DNA from: Myxococcota bacterium
GTDB taxonomy: Bacteria; Myxococcota_C; UBA6777
DNA length: 19,057 bases
Reading direction: 5' to 3'
NCBI GenBank assembly: GCA_023150835.1
Contig: JAKLKB010000132.1
Coordinates: 1 to 19,057, forward strand
A program made the translations under genes and the position numbers. Under the pieces are notes generated by a model, which made no database searches, was not told where the DNA came from, and saw only the letters and a program-made list of their open reading frames with translations. Shown here piece after piece: positions 10,374-19,057 of the stretch. The first letter of the stretch is position 1; each line of letters starts with the position of its first letter.

Positions 10374-11912
10374 ATGGCGAAAAAGAAAAAGCTCGAAGAG
10401 ACCGAAGTCACCACCCACACAAAACAGACCAAAGTTAAATCCACCGAAACCACCGAAGACACCGAAGACACCGTCGATGCGAAAGAGGCTTCTTCGCAAG
10501 AAGAACAGCCCGGATCTGCCGCTCATTTGAAATCCCCCCATGAACACGCCCAAGAGCACGCCCAAGAGCACGCCCATGAACACGCCCAAGAGCACGCCCA
10601 TGAACACGCCCACAAACACACACAAAAACACACACAAAAACACACACAGACGAGCGCCGAAGACGCGCCGAAAAAGCACACACGCAGCAAAAAAGCCGAT
10701 CATCCGACAGATCTGATCGCAGCGGTGGTTCAAAAGGGCGAAAGCCATCTCCAACACGCCACCCAAGCCGCAGAAAAAGCCGTCAAAGCCACACAAAAAG
10801 CCTCCAAAACCATCGTAGAAGCCGCAAGCGAGGCAGGCCACCTGATCGTGGAAGCTGCAACACAAACCACAGACGCCGCACGCCACGCGCTTGAAGACGC
10901 CGCACAAGTGACGGGGGAAGCCTTGGGTGGGGCCGTCGAGGAAGCCACAAAAACCGTACGCCAAGTCGCCAACGAAGTCGTTGACAGCGCAAGCCACGCC
11001 GCACACAAAGCCAGCGAAGATCTCTCTCATGCCGCACAAGATGTCGTCAAAGCCGCACAAAAGGCCGCCAAACAACTCCAACGCAGCGCCGAAGAGATCC
11101 TCCACGAAGCCCAAGCCGCCTTGCGCGAATCCACACACAACAACCCCCCCGTGTCGCACGATCAATCCCTTGTATCGAGCAGTATCAACCCTGATCCTCG
11201 CGCTCCCGAGGTCTCGATCGTGATCCCTGTTTACAACGAAGAAGGCATCATCACTTCTTCGGTCGAGGATCTGGTTCGCCGCCTCACCGAGATGGGTTGG
11301 TCCTACGAACTGATCCTTGCGGAAAACGGTAGCCGTGACGCCACCACCGCACTTGCCAACAACCTTGCGTCTCGTTTCCCTTCGGTTCGCGTGATCCATG
11401 CAGGCGAACCCAACTACGGAAAAGCGATGCGCCTTGGAATCCTCGAATCACGCGGAACATACGTCATCTGTGACGAGATCGATCTGTGTGACACGCGCTT
11501 TTATCGCGATGCGATGGCGCTCTTGCGCAGTGATGCCGCAGACATGGTGGTGGGGAGCAAGCTGTTGTCGGGTTCGTTGGACAATCGCGGATGGCTGCGC
11601 AATACCGCAAGCCAAGTCCTCAACAATATGCTGCGCGTTGCTGTGGGCTTTGAAGGCACCGATACACACGGACTCAAAGCCTTCCGTCGCGACCGTATCC
11701 TTCGGCTTGTCGAAGCCTGCCAAGTGGACAAAGATCTGTTTGCCTCCGAACTGGTGATCCGCGTGTGGCGCTCGACTGCCCGCATCAAAGAGATCCCCCT
11801 TCAGATCGAAGAAAAACGCAAACCCAGCATCAACTTGTTCCGTCGTGTGCCAAACGTCCTCAAAAACATGGGGAAACTGGTGTGGCTTTTCCGTGTACGC
11901 GGTGATATGTGA
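10374..11912 (+). CDS. Family 2 glycosyltransferase with His-rich/Ala-rich N-terminal extension
   Basis: Residues about 278-512 form a GT-A family 2 domain: VSIVIPVYNEEG (280-291), ENGSRDAT (317-324, in place of the usual DDGSxDxT), GKAMRLGI (349-356), an acidic CDEIDLCD (366-373) where the DxD motif is expected, and DTHGLKAFRR (430-439). The closest style is dolichyl/polyprenyl-phosphate sugar transferases; there is no C-terminal membrane segment. The first about 275 residues are unusual. Residues 1-50 are Lys/Thr/Glu-rich. At 55-92 a tetrad repeat (xHAQ, xHTQ) holds 13 His in 37 residues. Residues about 110-255 are Ala-rich amphipathic helix with Glu/Lys/Gln, like LEA, phasin or apolipoprotein helices, without long hydrophobic stretches. 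GAGGGAG lies 10 nt before the ATG. Donor and acceptor are unknown. The long antisense frame over this gene is a shadow. Confidence 0.85.
   Translation: MAKKKKLEETEVTTHTKQTKVKSTETTEDTEDTVDAKEASSQEEQPGSAAHLKSPHEHAQEHAQEHAHEHAQEHAHEHAHKHTQKHTQKHTQTSAEDAPKKHTRSKKADHPTDLIAAVVQKGESHLQHATQAAEKAVKATQKASKTIVEAASEAGHLIVEAATQTTDAARHALEDAAQVTGEALGGAVEEATKTVRQVANEVVDSASHAAHKASEDLSHAAQDVVKAAQKAAKQLQRSAEEILHEAQAALRESTHNNPPVSHDQSLVSSSINPDPRAPEVSIVIPVYNEEGIITSSVEDLVRRLTEMGWSYELILAENGSRDATTALANNLASRFPSVRVIHAGEPNYGKAMRLGILESRGTYVICDEIDLCDTRFYRDAMALLRSDAADMVVGSKLLSGSLDNRGWLRNTASQVLNNMLRVAVGFEGTDTHGLKAFRRDRILRLVEACQVDKDLFASELVIRVWRSTARIKEIPLQIEEKRKPSINLFRRVPNVLKNMGKLVWLFRVRGDM
10539..10650 (+). repeat. 12-bp coding microrepeat encoding His tetrads
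   Basis: A 12-bp unit of the form GAGCACGCCCAA or CATGAACACGCC is repeated about nine times, turning into CACAAACACACA-type units at the 3' end. It encodes the (Q/H)EHA and KHTQ tetrads of the glycosyltransferase extension. A multiple-of-three unit keeps the frame when copy number changes. Confidence 0.85.
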
Positions 11913-12034: not shown

Positions 12035-13081
12035 GTGTTGTGTGCAGTAACTCCCACCACACGTACCCTCGCCATCTTGGAGATCTTGCTCTTGGAACTG
12101 GCCAGTTATTTGTGCCAACGCGCACGACTCCCTTTCCCCCCCCAACTCCAGACGCTTGCGGCCACAGAACGCCTTGCGATCGCAGCGCGCAGCGTCTACC
12201 TGCACCGACTCTTTCAGATGGGGGGCGTGCTTGCTCAATCCATCCCACAAAACGGGCATCTCCACAGCCAACGCTTGTGGGATCTCCCCCCCAAAGCCCT
12301 CGCTCTCGGACCCGATGCTTCGGCCCTTCTGCAATCCCTTGAACAGATCCTACGCAACAGACAGACCGACACGATCCCCCCACCCTCGCAAGGGGGGGAT
12401 GTCTTGTTCTACCATGCGATCACCCTGCTCTTCCTCGATCATCCTCACCCCACGCTCTCCCAACAATTGTCTCGTGTCTCTCCGTTGACTCGCCTTTGCC
12501 GCTTTCCCATTATTCCCGAACACCCGCCACTTCGGCTTCTCGATCAAGAAAGCGGCCACCCTGCCCTCACTCACGAAGAAGCCGAAGCCTTGCAACAACA
12601 CCCTGCCGTCCACTTCTTTTCGGCTTATCTCGCCGATCAGTGGTCGCTCTTCCCCCCCCCAACGCCCCAAGTCCCGCCCGAAGAACAGATCGCCCACTTG
12701 AGAACTCGGTTGGCGACGCTTTTGTTGTGGATGGAGACCGCCCCACGCACAGGCCGTTTTTCGCTTCTCAGCGTTTTTCCTTTGTGGTGGAAACGCTTAC
12801 TTTCCGAGCACTTTGTCGAAAAAGTCACGGAGATCCAAAACTTTCGTACCTACCGCTTATCCCAGCGCGAAGCGCTGGTCTTTTGCTATGCCGAATTCTT
12901 GCGCCTTGGCGAGCGCCTTACAACGATCATCGAACAATACATCACACGCCCCGGCCCTTATGGTTGGGAAGATCCCGCCGAAGTGCGTGTATTTCTAAGC
13001 GTCGCAGGTCGCCAATGGACCAGCGGTGGACTCCAACAACGCGTTCAAGAAGCCCAACACCAACTGCGCCGCAGCCTTTGA
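12035..13081 (+). CDS. Uncharacterised helical protein, first gene of MoxR-vWA cluster
   Basis: The 348-residue product has no domain I recognise. It starts at GTG (12035), the first possible start after an in-frame stop at 12026, with GAGG 6 nt upstream. The sequence looks mainly alpha-helical (LEILLLELASYLCQRARL; LRTRLATLLLWMETA) and has a Pro-rich linker around residues 208-217 (PPPTPQVPPEEQ). No signal peptide and no membrane helix beyond moderately hydrophobic patches. It lies 122 bp after the glycosyltransferase and 72 bp before the next gene, in the same direction as the MoxR, vWA and small genes. By position it would be one of the lineage-specific X-domain components of AAA-vWA ternary systems. 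That role rests on neighbourhood only; that it is a real gene is supported by base and codon use like its neighbours. Confidence 0.75.
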   Translation: MLCAVTPTTRTLAILEILLLELASYLCQRARLPFPPQLQTLAATERLAIAARSVYLHRLFQMGGVLAQSIPQNGHLHSQRLWDLPPKALALGPDASALLQSLEQILRNRQTDTIPPPSQGGDVLFYHAITLLFLDHPHPTLSQQLSRVSPLTRLCRFPIIPEHPPLRLLDQESGHPALTHEEAEALQQHPAVHFFSAYLADQWSLFPPPTPQVPPEEQIAHLRTRLATLLLWMETAPRTGRFSLLSVFPLWWKRLLSEHFVEKVTEIQNFRTYRLSQREALVFCYAEFLRLGERLTTIIEQYITRPGPYGWEDPAEVRVFLSVAGRQWTSGGLQQRVQEAQHQLRRSL

Positions 13082-13153
13082 GGACGCCAAGGTACCCAAC
13101 ACCACACCCAAAACAGCCACTTCCCCCCGCCACCACCGCATAAAGGGTTTGTT

Positions 13154-15160
13154 ATGTCGCCCAAAGCTCATTGGTATCTTTTCCCCCGCGAACCTGATCT
13201 GCGTGCCGCTTTGTCCCAAGAATCCACCGCACTTTTGCATCCCTACCAACTTTGGCGCATCCACACACCCCCTCATGCCAACTCTGCCTTGCTTTTGCGC
13301 ACCGAACAACCGCTGTCTTCAACTCCTTTCGCGACAGCGGTCTCTGTCCTCCCCCCAACGCCCGCTCCCAACGAAACCCTGCTCACCCTCACACACACCA
13401 CCCCTCCCTCCCCACCTCGAACAGTTGAGGCGGCCTTGTGGCGACAAGGCTCCTGTCTTCTTGCTGCCCTTGGAATGCAAGAGGCACGATCCACAGATCA
13501 ACTCCAAACCCTCGCATGGATCCTGTATGATCTTCCTGCACAGATGCTCCAAGAACTCGTCTCGGATCACCTCGCACTCGACAACCACGACCTGCGATGC
13601 ACCTACACCCCAACACAACGGGCTTGGCTATGGAGTCGCCGTGCCGAAAGCTTCCTGACCCTGAAATACAGCGCACGCCCCAACGTCCGCCTTTATCAGT
13701 CCTTCCAAGACGCACCACATATCTTGACTCCCCTCGGACAACGCGGCCCCTTCGCCCCCTCCCTCCCACAGGGCGAACACCTGCTTGTGCTTGAGGCGGA
13801 TGGAACGACGCGATCCCTCCAAACCTCCGAATGGTGGGCCGCAAGCGAGCACTTGCACATCCAAGATCTCCCCACACCACAGCCCACCTCTGCATTCGAT
13901 CCTCCCCCGCCCATCCGTCTCGCCCTACGTTACATCCACGCCGAACCACGCGATATCCCGCTGCTTTGGCTGCTCGAAGGCGAACCAGCCCACCCAGCCA
14001 TCGAAAGCCTCTTTTTTGAGCTAGGTATCGAAGAGCGCCGCGCCATCAGCCTCGCGATCACGCACCTCCCCGAAACGACACAGCCGCTGTTTTTCTTGCG
14101 CGATGATCGACCCACGCCCACTTCTCCGCTATTTCATGCTGATCAAGCGATCGGTTTCGTTCCTTTTCTTCCTCAAGAAGGATTCTACATCCAACACGCT
14201 TTTCGTCTGTATCCCTCTCTCCCTCCCAACGTCCTCAAAAACACCTTCCGCTTGCATTACGGGCGCTATACGATACTTCAGCCCAAAGCACACACGCCAC
14301 AACCAAGGTTATTGTGTGTGCCTCGCGAGAGCTTCCAACCCATCGAGACGTATCTCCATTACCAGATCGGCGCACACCCCGAAGAAGTTCGCCAACTCGC
14401 CCAACACACCGCCCTCGATATCCTTTTTGAACCCACTTCGCTCCCCGCCCCCTCCGCAGCACACACCCCCACCGCTGCGCCCCCGCCTCACCCCGAAGCG
14501 CCCAACGCTCCTTCACGCGCACAAGCCTCCGTAGACCTCGATCCTGCTCCGCTCGCCCCCACACGCCGCAGCGAGCAAGAAAACGCTCTTCAAAAACTCG
14601 AACAACGCTTGCGCGAACGCACGCGGCGCGGCGAACACCCCACCACCCACGAATGGATCGAACTCGCCCGCCTTTACTACCGAGAATACATTCAAAAACA
14701 AAATCAACTCGCCCTTCAAGAAGCCCTCAAAGCCATCGATCAAGTCCTCTATCTCGACCGTTGCGCGCCTGACGCCGTCCAACTCGAACGCGCCATCCTC
14801 GAAGAAACTCTCCGAACGATCGGCCTCTCTTTCTCCGAACAGATGCGATCTCTCGATGCGCACCTCCAAAGCAAAGAACCCTTGCGTATGCGTCTGGCCT
14901 TCCGACTCCGCGCACGTTTACTCCTCGAACAATACGACGGTCCAGAAGATCAACGCATCGCTTTGCGCTTGCATTTTTACCGCGACTTCGCCGCCATCGA
15001 AGACTCCTTGATGATCCGCGAACATTACATCTACGCCGAAGGAGTCGCTCTGACCCTTCAAGACGACGAACTCTACGAACGCGCACGCTTGCGATACCGC
15101 CAAGCGCTCCAAGATCAAGCACGACTCCAGCACGAGCTGCCCCTTGTCCTCTTGCCCTAA
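13154..15160 (+). CDS. Large uncharacterised protein of MoxR-vWA cluster
   Basis: The 668-residue product begins at ATG with AAGG about 7-8 nt upstream. Two parts can be seen. Residues about 1-430 form an alpha/beta region opening with HWYLFPRE, with LWRQGSCLLAALG, VFL-type core strands and LPPNVLKNTFRLHYGRYTIL near residues 356-375; no catalytic motif is evident. A Pro/Ala-rich linker (about 435-475) leads to a helical C-terminal region (about 478-668) with paired helices (ALEEALKAIDQVLYLDR-like, YERARLRYRQALQDQARLQ) that could be degenerate TPR-like repeats. This layout and its place directly before a RavA-type MoxR gene match the large X proteins of AAA-vWA ternary systems. I infer a scaffold or substrate-recognition role. 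No enzymatic activity can be claimed. Confidence 0.78.
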   Translation: MSPKAHWYLFPREPDLRAALSQESTALLHPYQLWRIHTPPHANSALLLRTEQPLSSTPFATAVSVLPPTPAPNETLLTLTHTTPPSPPRTVEAALWRQGSCLLAALGMQEARSTDQLQTLAWILYDLPAQMLQELVSDHLALDNHDLRCTYTPTQRAWLWSRRAESFLTLKYSARPNVRLYQSFQDAPHILTPLGQRGPFAPSLPQGEHLLVLEADGTTRSLQTSEWWAASEHLHIQDLPTPQPTSAFDPPPPIRLALRYIHAEPRDIPLLWLLEGEPAHPAIESLFFELGIEERRAISLAITHLPETTQPLFFLRDDRPTPTSPLFHADQAIGFVPFLPQEGFYIQHAFRLYPSLPPNVLKNTFRLHYGRYTILQPKAHTPQPRLLCVPRESFQPIETYLHYQIGAHPEEVRQLAQHTALDILFEPTSLPAPSAAHTPTAAPPPHPEAPNAPSRAQASVDLDPAPLAPTRRSEQENALQKLEQRLRERTRRGEHPTTHEWIELARLYYREYIQKQNQLALQEALKAIDQVLYLDRCAPDAVQLERAILEETLRTIGLSFSEQMRSLDAHLQSKEPLRMRLAFRLRARLLLEQYDGPEDQRIALRLHFYRDFAAIEDSLMIREHYIYAEGVALTLQDDELYERARLRYRQALQDQARLQHELPLVLLP

Positions 15161-15210
15161 ACACACCACCATACCCCGCGCAACCATGCCTAGCAGAAAG
15201 GAGACGCGAC

Positions 15211-15270
15211 GTGAAAGAATTTTTGCAAACGTCGCATACACCGCATGAATCCAACGATCTCCATCTCTGA
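15211..15270 (+). CDS. Possible 19-codon leader ORF overlapping the MoxR start
   Basis: AAGGAG lies 7 nt before a GTG at 15211, the best ribosome-binding site in this cluster. The frame runs 19 codons (VKEFLQTSHTPHESNDLHL) and stops at 15268-15270, 26 bp inside the MoxR gene in a different frame. The MoxR ATG at 15245 has no site of its own. The short ORF could couple translation to MoxR, or the true MoxR start could be the GTG with a one-base sequence error between. Either is inference. Confidence 0.3.
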   Translation: MKEFLQTSHTPHESNDLHL

Positions 15271-16207
15271 AGCCCGCCACCAACTCCGTCTGCTCGCTCG
15301 CAGCCTACAACGCGAGTTTGTAGGCCGCGAAGAAACCATCGATCTGCTCGTCCTTTGCGCCGTCGCAGGCGAACCGCTGCTCCTGATCGGCCCACCCGGC
15401 GTCGGCAAAACCGCTCTGATCAAAACCTTTGCCAAACGCATCGGACTCAAAGATCACGAACTCTTCGATTACTTAATCACCCGATTCACCGAGCCTAGCG
15501 AACTGATCGGCCCGATCGATATCCACGCCCTCCGCGAAGGTCATTACCGCAGACGCGTCCAAGGCAAACTCCCCACCTCCAAGCTCGCCTTTATCGACGA
15601 GATCTTTAAAGCCAACAGCGCCATCCTCAACACCCTCCTGAGCGTCCTCAACGAACGCTGCTATTACCAAGACGGACGCGCAGAACCCGTAGACACCGAG
15701 ATCTTTCTCGCTGCCTCCAACCGCATCGCCGACGACCCCGAACTCGAAGCCCTTCGCGACCGCTTTTTGCTCAAGGTCGAACTCCGCGAAGTAAAACGCG
15801 AACACTTTGATCCCCTGCTCCGTCAAGGCATGCTCCAAGAACTCGAACGACGGCTCCAACGCAACACTCCCCCGCTGATCCAACTCGAAACCTTTCTTCA
15901 ACTTCGGCAACACCTTGACGAAGGATTGCTCGCCACCGTCGAGCAAGATCGCGATGATCCACTCTTTCCCTCCGAGATGCGACGCTTGTTTGAGCGACTG
16001 GTGATCTCCCTCGATACCGAAGGATACGCTCGCATCAGCGATCGCGCTTTGATCAAACTCTACCGCATCATCCGCTTTCATGCGTTCCTTCTCGGTCGTG
16101 GCGAAGTCCAACACGAAGACCTGTTTTTGCTCGCCTACACCGCCAACCGACAAGACTATCTCACCCCCCTTCGCCAACGCGTCACCACGCTACTCGATCT
16201 GGCCTAA
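15245..16207 (+). CDS. MoxR/RavA-type AAA+ ATPase of ternary cluster
   Basis: The 320-residue protein is a classic MoxR ATPase: VGREE before the P-loop, Walker A GPPGVGKT (49-56), the loop LITRFTEPSELIGPID (78-92), Walker B AFIDEIFKANSAILNTLL with Asp118/Glu119, sensor 1 in AASNRI (Asn159), LRDRF for the arginine finger (Arg171 or Arg173), and a helical lid (about 200-320). The loop and Walker B wording are those of the RavA branch, whose members pair with vWA proteins to remodel targets by ATP hydrolysis. It is a full-length cytoplasmic enzyme. The ATG at 15245 is the first start after an in-frame stop at 15212 but lacks a ribosome-binding site; see the overlapping leader frame at 15211. The vWA-like gene follows 58 bp later, supporting a working pair. 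Confidence 0.95.
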   Translation: MNPTISISEARHQLRLLARSLQREFVGREETIDLLVLCAVAGEPLLLIGPPGVGKTALIKTFAKRIGLKDHELFDYLITRFTEPSELIGPIDIHALREGHYRRRVQGKLPTSKLAFIDEIFKANSAILNTLLSVLNERCYYQDGRAEPVDTEIFLAASNRIADDPELEALRDRFLLKVELREVKREHFDPLLRQGMLQELERRLQRNTPPLIQLETFLQLRQHLDEGLLATVEQDRDDPLFPSEMRRLFERLVISLDTEGYARISDRALIKLYRIIRFHAFLLGRGEVQHEDLFLLAYTANRQDYLTPLRQRVTTLLDLA

Positions 16208-16265
16208 ACTCTTGTCCTCTCTCGGTTTTGAGGCTTCACCCTCCCTCACATCAACAAGGTTTCAG

Positions 16266-17963
16266 ATGACCCACGCCACCCCACCCCACCTCTCCGTCCC
16301 CAAGATCACCATCCCGATCGCCGAAAAGCGCAACAGCCCGCACCAACGCAACTACTACGAAGAACGCGAACGCATGTACCAATGGGGCAGTCTTGCCCTG
16401 TCTTTGCGCCAAGATCGCCACGATCTCCCCACCCTCCGACGCGCTTTGCTTCTCCATCGAGAAACCATTCTACAACTACGCAAAACCCCGCCCCTTGGAC
16501 TTTTCCTCGATCTTCTTGGCATCCTCCAACGCGGCGAACAGATCTCCTTGCGCACCATCGATCACGAAGATCCTTCTCTCCAACGCGCTCTTCGCCGACA
16601 ACAAAACGATCTGCTCTGGCGCATCCTCCGATGCCACCGCTTCTTTCGCATCCAACACCTCCTCCAACAACTCCCCACAACTCCCACCACCAAAAAAACC
16701 AGCGAGATATCCGATCCCCTCTCTTTACGCGAACAAGCCCATGTCTACTTGCTTGCCCAATGGCTCCATCTGATCCAAGATCTGCTCTTTGAAACCTTTC
16801 CGCCTCACACTCTCCCTGACGCCTTTCCGCCCTATCCTCCGCCACTTTGGTGGCAACACCCCGAAGAAGCCCTACAGATCTTCGACCTCGCCCTCGCAGA
16901 ACCCGGATGGAGTCTCAAACAAGCTCACGCCATCTTCGATCGCTTTGTCCAAATCCCCGAAGAGATCCTCTTTCCCGATAGCGTCTTTTTGATCCTTCAA
17001 CACATCGAACTCATGCCCTCCAAACTCGAACGCGTCCGCTGGCAACAACTCTCCGAGATCTACACCGCTCTTCCTCCTCTTCAAACCCACCAACAGCTAA
17101 TCCGCATCCGCGATCTGGGCTACGCACAGATGCTCCTGCCTTCTCCTAGCGAGATCCCCGAAGGCGGAATCAACGGCTTGACCCACCAAGGCAAGATCGA
17201 AAGCCTCCTCCCCTCCGAACTCCTCTATTGGGAAGACTCCCCTTCAGCCCAACACATCGACCTTTTCGCGCTCCGATGGGTCGAACAAGAGCTACTGTTC
17301 TTCCAAAGAGAACAAGAATTCACCTTTACCAAACACCGCACCCTCTCGATCTGTCTCGACCTTGACCTCGGAGATGCCCGATACAAGGCCCCGAACGCAC
17401 CCGTCCCCGTCCATGCGCTGATCTTTGGCTTCCTCGCTCGCCTCTCCAACGATCTGCGCCGCCTCTGCCCCCAAGAAGTCCTCTCCCTGCGTTACCGCCT
17501 CGGCCCTGATACATGGGCCGAGGATATCGCCCTTTGGAAGCTCTTTCTCACCAGCATCGATGGCGTGGGCAGCCAAACCCACCTCTCCCTCCAACCCAAC
17601 ATCCAACACACCATCCTCCACCAACGACCATCCAGCGGAGAGTTTCGACTCCTTGTCGTCACCCCAACCACCTTGCCTCCTTACCTTCACTCCACGCTCG
17701 AACCCCCGTTCCATGCGCTTCTTTGCTTTGCACCAGCCCCCCTCCACGAACCCTCACTCTCTCCCGTCCCCCACCATCGGCTCCCTCCAACCTCCCTCCA
17801 ACCTCCTCTCCACCCCCCACGATGGCTCCTTGGCTTCTCCGAGCAGCAAGACATACAACACACCCTTGCCAACCTCCGTGATCTTCTCTTAGCTTCTATC
17901 CTACGGATCTCCCCAACTCGGGGAGCAGCATACACCCCCATGCACAGGGAGTCCCCACCATGA
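16266..17963 (+). CDS. vWA-like protein partner of MoxR, degenerate MIDAS
   Basis: The 565-residue protein has a helical N-terminal half with many Arg/Leu pairs (about 25-290), then the layout of vWA proteins encoded next to MoxR ATPases: GGINGLTHQGKIESLLPSELL at about 300-320, DLFALRWVEQELLFFQRE at 332-349, and a Rossmann-like domain from TLSICLDLDLGD (359-370) on. In working vWA domains this last strand carries DxSxS; here Asp365 is kept, but both Ser positions are Asp367 and Gly369. Strands RLLVVTP (461-467) and ALLCFAP (484-490) fit later vWA strands. A long Pro-rich segment lies at 487-520. Start: the ATG at 16266 after an AAGG, because the longer frame from 16080 lies inside the MoxR gene. 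Its stop overlaps the next ATG by 4 bp. vWA identity rests on motif pattern and neighbourhood. Confidence 0.8.
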   Translation: MTHATPPHLSVPKITIPIAEKRNSPHQRNYYEERERMYQWGSLALSLRQDRHDLPTLRRALLLHRETILQLRKTPPLGLFLDLLGILQRGEQISLRTIDHEDPSLQRALRRQQNDLLWRILRCHRFFRIQHLLQQLPTTPTTKKTSEISDPLSLREQAHVYLLAQWLHLIQDLLFETFPPHTLPDAFPPYPPPLWWQHPEEALQIFDLALAEPGWSLKQAHAIFDRFVQIPEEILFPDSVFLILQHIELMPSKLERVRWQQLSEIYTALPPLQTHQQLIRIRDLGYAQMLLPSPSEIPEGGINGLTHQGKIESLLPSELLYWEDSPSAQHIDLFALRWVEQELLFFQREQEFTFTKHRTLSICLDLDLGDARYKAPNAPVPVHALIFGFLARLSNDLRRLCPQEVLSLRYRLGPDTWAEDIALWKLFLTSIDGVGSQTHLSLQPNIQHTILHQRPSSGEFRLLVVTPTTLPPYLHSTLEPPFHALLCFAPAPLHEPSLSPVPHHRLPPTSLQPPLHPPRWLLGFSEQQDIQHTLANLRDLLLASILRISPTRGAAYTPMHRESPP

Positions 17964-18487
17964 GCAAACCTTATCGCATCCGCCTCCAAGAAACCGTCAC
18001 CGTCGCCGATCACTCGACCTTTCACATCGATCCCGTCCCCCTTGTCACACAACAAGGCTTCGAGCAGATCATGCAGCAAACACTCCAAGAACTCGGATGG
18101 AAGGCCGATTCAGAAGGACGCCTCTCGATCGCCATCGACGACAAAGAAACATGGACCTATCTCCCCGACAAGATGCAGATCATCACTTCCGTCGAAACCC
18201 AACACCAGATCAACCAAAACATCGAGTCGTGGAGTCCCGACGTCCTCGAACTAGAGGCCGAACGCATCAAGCAAGAACGCGAGCGCGAACTCCAACAACA
18301 AACCACCAACGTCCTCGAAGCCGGCCAAGAAGAACGCCGCCGACAATTCGAAACCATCGTCGCCGAGGCCACCGGACGCGCCATCAAACAAGCTGCCGAA
18401 CGGCTCGGCGATATCCAAGAGATCAGCGAAAGTCGCGGTGAAAAGGGACAATACACCCTCTCGATCACCATCCACGAACGTGAGTAA
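17960..18487 (+). CDS. Small alpha/beta plus coiled-coil protein of MoxR-vWA cluster
   Basis: The 175-residue product has no domain I can name with certainty. Residues 1-80 look alpha/beta (YRIRLQETVTVADHSTFHIDPVPLV, then a helix QGFEQIMQQTLQELGW and strands RLSIAIDD and QIITSVE). Residues about 90-150 are a Glu/Arg/Gln-rich helix likely to form a coiled coil, and the last strand is YTLSITIHERE. Its ATG overlaps the stop of the vWA gene (ATGA), with GGGAG 8 nt upstream, so translation is probably coupled and the products made in fixed ratio. Small proteins of this build occur in AAA-vWA ternary systems as accessory X domains, an assignment made from memory of the layout and not from a search. 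Cytoplasmic. A 28-nt near-copy of its 3' end lies 74 bp downstream. Confidence 0.75.
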   Translation: MSKPYRIRLQETVTVADHSTFHIDPVPLVTQQGFEQIMQQTLQELGWKADSEGRLSIAIDDKETWTYLPDKMQIITSVETQHQINQNIESWSPDVLELEAERIKQERERELQQQTTNVLEAGQEERRRQFETIVAEATGRAIKQAAERLGDIQEISESRGEKGQYTLSITIHERE

Positions 18488-18580: not shown

Positions 18581-18852
18581 GTGATCGTAAGATAGTACGT
18601 AGACGCCCGATTCTTGGGCAGCCACACCTGTCTGCCCCTACATCTTGCGTGATCGTAAGATAGCACGTAGACGCCCGATTTTTGGGCAGCCACACCTGTC
18701 TGCCCCTACATCTTGCGTGATCGTAAAATAGTACGTAGACGCCCGATTCTTGGGCAGCCACAGGGGGCTGCCCCTACATCTTGCGTGATCGTAAAATAGT
18801 ACGTAGACGCCCGATTCTTGGGCAGCCACAGGGGGCTGCCCCTACATCTTGC
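18581..18852 (-). repeat. Four head-to-tail 68-bp repeats, each with a hairpin
   Basis: Copies start at 18581, 18649, 18717 and 18785, a period of exactly 68 bp. Copies 3 and 4 are identical in the bases compared; copies 1 and 2 share other variants. On the minus strand each reads TGTAGGGGCAG, loop, CTGCCCAAGAATCGGGCG and so on. Copies 1-2 have a 6-bp stem (GGGCAG/CTGCCC), while copies 3-4 have an 8-bp stem (GGGCAGCC/GGCTGCCC). There are no unique spacers, so this is not CRISPR. It belongs to the GTAGGGGC family of 580 and 1765. Confidence 0.9.
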
Positions 18853-18909
18853 GATCACACAACAATCAACTGAAACTTGTTGCAGCATAAGCTGTGGGAC
18901 AGGTATTTT

Positions 18910-19057
18910 GGCAATGTGAGATTGCGGTGGAGGCTGTGAGACAGCCTGTTTGGCAATGTGAGATTGCGGTGGAGGCTATGAGACAGCCTGTTTGGCAATG
19001 TGAGATTGCGGTGGAGGCTATGAGACAGCCTGTTTGGCAATGTGAGATTGCGGTGGA
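18910..19057. repeat. 42-bp tandem array, continues past right edge
   Basis: Copies start at 18910, 18952 and 18994, with a fourth cut at 19057; a decayed copy lies at about 18888-18909. The unit is 42 bp (14 codons) and begins GGCAATGTGAGATTGCGGTG. Copies differ by one base (gctGtgag versus gctAtgag). One frame on each strand stays open through all copies: QCEIAVEAMRQPVW on plus and PNRLSHSLHRNLTL on minus. No ribosome-binding site supports either. Confidence 0.88.

Follow-up and report, generated by a model that had tools for sequence, protein, structure and literature searches.

A five-gene MoxR-ivWA cassette in a Myxococcota genome is probably part of an FtsH ternary system whose FtsH is encoded at a separate locus

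We analyzed a 19,057-bp stretch of DNA from a Myxococcota bacterium (GenBank assembly GCA_023150835.1, contig JAKLKB010000132.1), focusing on a cassette of five genes at positions 12035 to 18487. This stretch, called the window here, is the entire contig C73 of a 7.56-Mb genome. The closest genome, in the same genus, is the metagenome-assembled genome "Myxococcota bacterium KLAP109." The five genes probably encode MoxR, ivWA, fvmX5, fvmX6, and fvmX7 as components of an FtsH ternary system, which an FtsH from a separate locus would join in trans. According to the main text of Kaur et al. 2020 (PMC7159879), FtsH ternary systems are subsystem 3 of the vWA-MoxR systems, a class described from gene neighborhoods, and consist of MoxR, a divergent vWA protein, and a third protein, in which two FtsH-type AAA domains are present and the N-terminal one is inactive. 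The literature searched held no experiments on any FtsH ternary system. The initial annotation had placed the cassette in the MoxR-vWA ternary class, and it does belong there, as the FtsH type with X proteins. The genes are as follows.

12035..13081, + strand: fvmX6-like protein, 348 amino acids, GTG start, putative mostly helical scaffold (iterated profile, hhalign, AlphaFold2)
13154..15160, + strand: shortened fvmX7, 668 amino acids, assigned from its sequence (PF20005 matches among orthologues; hhalign)
15245..16207, + strand: MoxR AAA+ ATPase of the bpMoxR clade, 320 amino acids (PF20030, 5.1e-61)
16266..17963, + strand: ivWA protein, likely start at 16266 (PF19997, 3.7e-17; listed open reading frame 16080-17963, 627 amino acids)
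17960..18487, + strand: fvmX5 protein, 175 amino acids, coiled-coil rich (PF20003, 2.9e-13; kept in five of five genomes)

As annotated initially, the five open reading frames are co-directional on the + strand, and the last two genes (ivWA and fvmX5) share 4 bp. All five occur in the order X6-X7-MoxR-ivWA-X5 in the window genome and in each of four related genomes (together G000 to G004), and none of the proteins matched an unrelated housekeeping family. The ratio of nonsynonymous to synonymous substitution rates (dN/dS) of the five genes, measured against the nearest relative, was 0.03 to 0.19. This ratio and the gene order kept in four other genomes show that the reading frames are real genes. 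A start at 16080 would make the ivWA gene overlap moxR by 128 bp, whereas the overlap in the relatives is 4 bp. Therefore, the in-frame ATG at 16266 (RFQ-M-THA) is the likelier start. ARAGORN predicted an antisense tRNA-Gln inside the ivWA gene (17266-17337), but Rfam had no match there and we judged it probably spurious.

In the Pfam profile search, MoxR fell into the bpMoxR family. Its Walker A (GPPGVGKT), Walker B (FIDE), and RDR motifs are intact, with residues that are invariant in eight homologues. It had been labeled RavA-type, and, as in RavA-ViaA, a MoxR ATPase adjoins a vWA protein. However, its score against the RavA equivalog was 143 bits, far below the cut-off of 681, so bpMoxR is the closer family. 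The three additional X proteins and the putative FtsH partner also distinguish the cassette from RavA-ViaA. PF20030 is named for the MoxR-vWA-beta-propeller systems, but it also covers MoxR proteins of the FtsH type. Unlike in those systems, Pfam found no beta-propeller family in the vWA protein, in the other cassette proteins, or in a neighbor, and the vWA domain is of the FtsH-system type. Its match to PF19997 is above the family cut-off. The first Asp of the metal ion-dependent adhesion site is retained, whereas the DxSxS serines are not conserved. N-terminal to the ivWA domain are about 300 residues. In the window copy these have no match to PF19996 (helical N-terminal domain), which is matched by ivWA copies from Nannocystis and from contig C9 of the same genome.

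The 348- and 668-residue proteins had been taken for proteins of unknown fold, and searched singly neither has a Pfam match. We built family profiles from aligned orthologues in the window genome and its four relatives. The iterated profile of the 348-residue family recovered Nannocystis and Polyangia proteins that occupy the fvmX6 position of linked systems, several of which match PF20004 (fvmX6) above its cut-off. Aligned directly with bona fide fvmX6, the family reached an hhalign probability of 81.5% (E 1.1e-5, 269 columns). Three of the five orthologues of the 668-residue protein match PF20005 (fvmX7), the best at 1.3e-11. The protein also aligned with the long fvmX7 of contig C9 at 98.4% (E 1e-14) but is about 400 residues shorter. 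By these sequence comparisons, the 348-residue protein is assigned as a divergent fvmX6 and the 668-residue protein as a shortened, divergent fvmX7. With the 175-residue protein matching fvmX5, the reason given for a new subtype, that the first two proteins had no recognized domain, falls away.

The AlphaFold2 model of the 348-residue protein is mostly helical (mean predicted local distance difference test score [pLDDT] of 90.7). That of the 668-residue protein (pLDDT 83.8) has a beta-rich N-terminal part (about residues 1 to 420) and C-terminal helical repeats (about 471 to 660). Foldseek returned nothing for either model at an E of ≤0.001, a search that barely tested the N-terminal part of the larger one. 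"Unknown fold" thus holds in that no solved structure matched significantly, but the families themselves are known. VIA-align gave background-level matches that we did not use. Its best Z for the 348-residue model was 6.6 (root-mean-square deviation [rmsd] 5.1, 189 aligned), to mixed helical proteins, and for the C-terminal part of the 668-residue model it was 7.6 (rmsd 6.2, 121 aligned), a level usual for helical models at which EMC2, Fis1, 14-3-3, and other helical-repeat chains tied.

The initial annotation saw no third partner in view, in part because the window ends where the contig ends. Indeed, there is no FtsH in the cassette or its flanks in any of the five genomes. However, each of them carries, on another contig, a separate gene for a dual-AAA FtsH, with the gene for an fvmX3-analog (PF20002) directly after it. 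The gene in the window genome is the following.

C16:21417-23489: dual-AAA FtsH, with orthologues in all five genomes

These FtsH proteins are about 67 to 98% identical among the five genomes. Their first AAA domain has no P-loop, whereas the second is intact (GPPGTGKT, FDE), as is the M41 metalloprotease (HEAGH and the third, Asp ligand of the zinc site). In G004, the contigs that carry the cassette and FtsH are 212 kb and 82 kb long, respectively, and the loci are separated by no less than 75 kb. In G002 and in G003, ivWA, cassette-type MoxR, dual FtsH, and the X3-analog each occur exactly once. Cassette-type MoxR and C16-type FtsH each form one clean clade of five with a support of 1.0. In G000, G002, and G004, a conserved protein of 612 to 701 residues is encoded downstream of the FtsH-X3 pair. 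Its match to GAF is weak, visual inspection suggests degenerate kinase and receiver-like regions, and it is a candidate regulator.

L028:5264-7180, L134:5809-7647, and L136:11255-13360: GAF/receiver-like protein, 612 to 701 amino acids

A separate observation concerns G000 and G001 only, in which a 2,133-residue protein is encoded directly upstream of the unlinked FtsH (L133:2624-9025; L028:10817-16534). It has a hydrophobic, membrane-like N terminus and a weak AAA_16/NACHT match.

The initial annotation had proposed to look for an FtsH-like or beta-propeller gene beyond position 19057. The last 480 bp of C73 are largely tandem repeats, with a 68-bp unit present 4.0 times (18581-18853) and a 42-bp unit present 3.6 times (18907-19057, to the contig end). 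The 68-bp unit also has related copies scattered in contigs C9 and C16. These tandem repeats with dispersed genomic copies explain the assembly break. Contig C260 of G001 spans the junction between the ends of C73 and C146 (88% over 1,154 bp). Beyond this junction lie a DUF1641 gene, an RlaP nucleotidyltransferase gene, and a MiaB-like gene. By this synteny, C146 has no FtsH or other ternary component, which rules out an FtsH just beyond the contig end. A direct join of C16 to C73 was also rejected, as no overlap supports it and only the dispersed repeats match.

The same genome encodes a complete linked system on contig C9 (about 10326-21000), in the order fvmX6-like, fvmX5, FtsH, fvmX3-analog, fvmX7, MoxR, ivWA. 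Nannocystis genomes have this order too. All components of the C9 locus are homologous to those considered here, and its MoxR is 49% identical to that of the cassette. However, the C9 locus is fully linked, its MoxR P-loop is GKPGTAKS, and its fvmX7 is long (1,077 residues). Among known FtsH ternary systems, the closest is the simpler form, in which a helical region comes before vWA. The cassette shares with it bpMoxR, ivWA, fvmX5, and fvmX6- and fvmX7-like proteins, and the genome also encodes an fvmX3-analog and a dual-AAA FtsH whose first domain is inactive. The cassette differs in having FtsH and the X3-analog at a separate locus, in its order (X6-X7-MoxR-ivWA-X5 rather than X6-X5-FtsH-X3-X7-MoxR-ivWA), in its shorter fvmX7, in a canonical MoxR P-loop where known systems have GXXXTAKS, and in having no known effector nearby. 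Since the supposedly novel proteins belong to known families and FtsH is at another locus, this is a variant of layout, not of parts.

In the main text of PMC7159879, linkage of the FtsH gene to MoxR and vWA is the usual layout and is not stated to be required. An unlinked FtsH is not discussed in the main-text passages that were searched, the supplements lying outside that search. Of 44 other genomes with a related MoxR locus, 17 had the dual FtsH on the same contig as that locus, 24 had it on a different contig, and 3 lacked it. Linked systems have FtsH upstream of MoxR. In 19 of the 24 split genomes, that side of the MoxR locus is assembled for 8.5 kb or more and contains no dual FtsH. Therefore, contig breaks alone are insufficient to account for the splits. 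The usual partitions elsewhere are X6-X5-FtsH-X3 // X7-MoxR-ivWA and X6-X5-FtsH-X3-X7 // MoxR-ivWA. A partition with X5 and X6 beside MoxR was not found outside the lineage in the sampled genomes, and the combination of two loci with a reshuffled order (X6-X7-MoxR-ivWA-X5 // FtsH-X3) is distinctive. Across all 49 genomes, the five that have two dual FtsH proteins all have two related MoxR proteins (Fisher-type p of about 1e-5, uncorrected for the relatedness of the genomes). As a side observation, some dual FtsH proteins have an intein inside the active AAA domain (L088:335-3886; PF14890, LAGLIDADG_3). Similarly long dual-FtsH frames of 1,202 and 1,263 residues are present in G020:C559 and G030:C9.

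How might the two loci work together? The cassette would supply the non-FtsH part, and the third component, from the two-gene FtsH-fvmX3-analog locus on C16, would join in trans. fvmX6, fvmX7, and fvmX5 may form an adaptor scaffold, while ivWA would bind a target or the tail of a partner. The MoxR ring would then hydrolyze ATP to remodel the ivWA-bound complex, and the dual-AAA FtsH may receive the target and unfold or degrade it. We infer the physical partnership with the unlinked FtsH, the order of events, and the nature of the target. Several points weigh against such a partnership. The co-occurrence is confined to one lineage, so shared ancestry alone could account for the pattern. The unlinked FtsH might have a role of its own with the adjoining GAF/receiver-like gene, and in G000, G001, and G004 both systems could be served by a second, linked FtsH of the C9 type. 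The direct match to fvmX6 is moderate, and neither an effector nor a substrate was identified.

The cassette might instead have dropped the FtsH step, with MoxR and ivWA working as a stand-alone chaperone pair with adaptors, like RavA-ViaA, and the unlinked FtsH employed otherwise. The lack of FtsH in or near the cassette and on continuation contigs would fit this, as would the shortened fvmX7, the reshuffled order, and the divergence of MoxR and ivWA from their linked-type counterparts. However, every genome with the cassette keeps a dedicated dual FtsH and an fvmX3-analog, a family named only for these systems. fvmX5 and fvmX6, the FtsH neighbors in linked systems, are retained as well, and genomes with an unlinked layout elsewhere nearly always keep one dual FtsH. 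We therefore regard an FtsH-independent machine as unlikely. In another reading, for genomes with both systems, the linked C9-type FtsH would serve both, and the C16-type protein would be a third protease with an independent role. A linked system, complete or nearly so, is also present in G000, G001, and G004. However, in G002 and G003 the cassette is accompanied by the C16-type FtsH only, and the two types of FtsH share just about 45% identity and fall into separate clades that match the two MoxR types. We regard this reading as highly improbable.

The genes on either side of the cassette are also conserved.

10374..11912, + strand: family-2 glycosyltransferase, directly upstream of the cassette (PF00535, 1.8e-15)
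L031:13518-14660, L035:7171-8349, and L161:17134-19008: RlaP-type nucleotidyltransferase (PF10127)

An orthologue of the glycosyltransferase is in the same place in all five genomes (73 to 89% identical over the glycosyltransferase domain), and in G002 its gene and that of X6 overlap by 4 bp. The RlaP-type gene comes right after the cassette or a short way past it in four genomes: in G002 and G004 it follows directly, and in G001 and G000 it was placed there via contig bridging. Both are conserved neighbors whose role is unproven. The MiaB-like radical SAM protein encoded further downstream is apparently an ordinary tRNA enzyme. In this genus only, the glycosyltransferase has a long N-terminal extension (10374-11190) that contains repeats rich in His, Glu, and Ala and gives a weak phasin-like match. 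Elsewhere in the window, the intergenic region 1771-2320 has a translated motif, SVRHEKTKSPMLPTFAPSPV, in common with C9 (L013:8839-9120), which suggests another dispersed repeat family.

In the main text of PMC7159879, the whole class is proposed on comparative grounds to be conflict systems, with effector swapping as a hallmark. An anti-phage or cell-death function, with an effector that is unlinked or unrecognized, would be compatible with a split FtsH ternary system, and RlaP or the glycosyltransferase could be that effector. The position of the RlaP-like gene would suit such a function, as would the dN/dS of X6, X7, and ivWA (0.15 to 0.19, versus 0.01 to 0.09 for neighboring genes). However, no caspase, EAD, NEFF1, TIR, or peptide-radical-SAM effector was recognized. 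By Pfam, none of NEFF1, a peptide with radical SAM, and Ubl/EAD1-caspase was among the neighbors tested, though effectors may be unlinked. PADLOC matched only generic AAA. The five genomes have the same content, inherited vertically and with no effector swapping, unlike the hallmark of the class. We consider a conflict function doubtful. A proteostasis role fits at least as well, because the ATPases evolve slowly (dN/dS 0.02 to 0.07), X6, X7, and ivWA evolve at a moderate rate, inheritance is vertical, and no effector was recognized.

The cassette is thus a known kind of system, and what is new is its split, reshuffled layout. As a tentative proposal, FtsH ternary systems might be modular, vertically inherited protein-quality machines rather than conflict systems, with the MoxR-ivWA loader and FtsH as separable modules that have repeatedly become unlinked. 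The cassette could then be a streamlined version that relies on FtsH in trans and that the GAF/receiver-like protein might control. The combination of no swapped effector and purifying selection makes it questionable that all members of the class are conflict systems. G002 and G003, each with a single split system, would show cleanly whether MoxR-ivWA and the dual-AAA FtsH belong to a single machine. Furthermore, if the FtsH partner is often unlinked, then neighborhood-based searches would undercount or misassign these systems.

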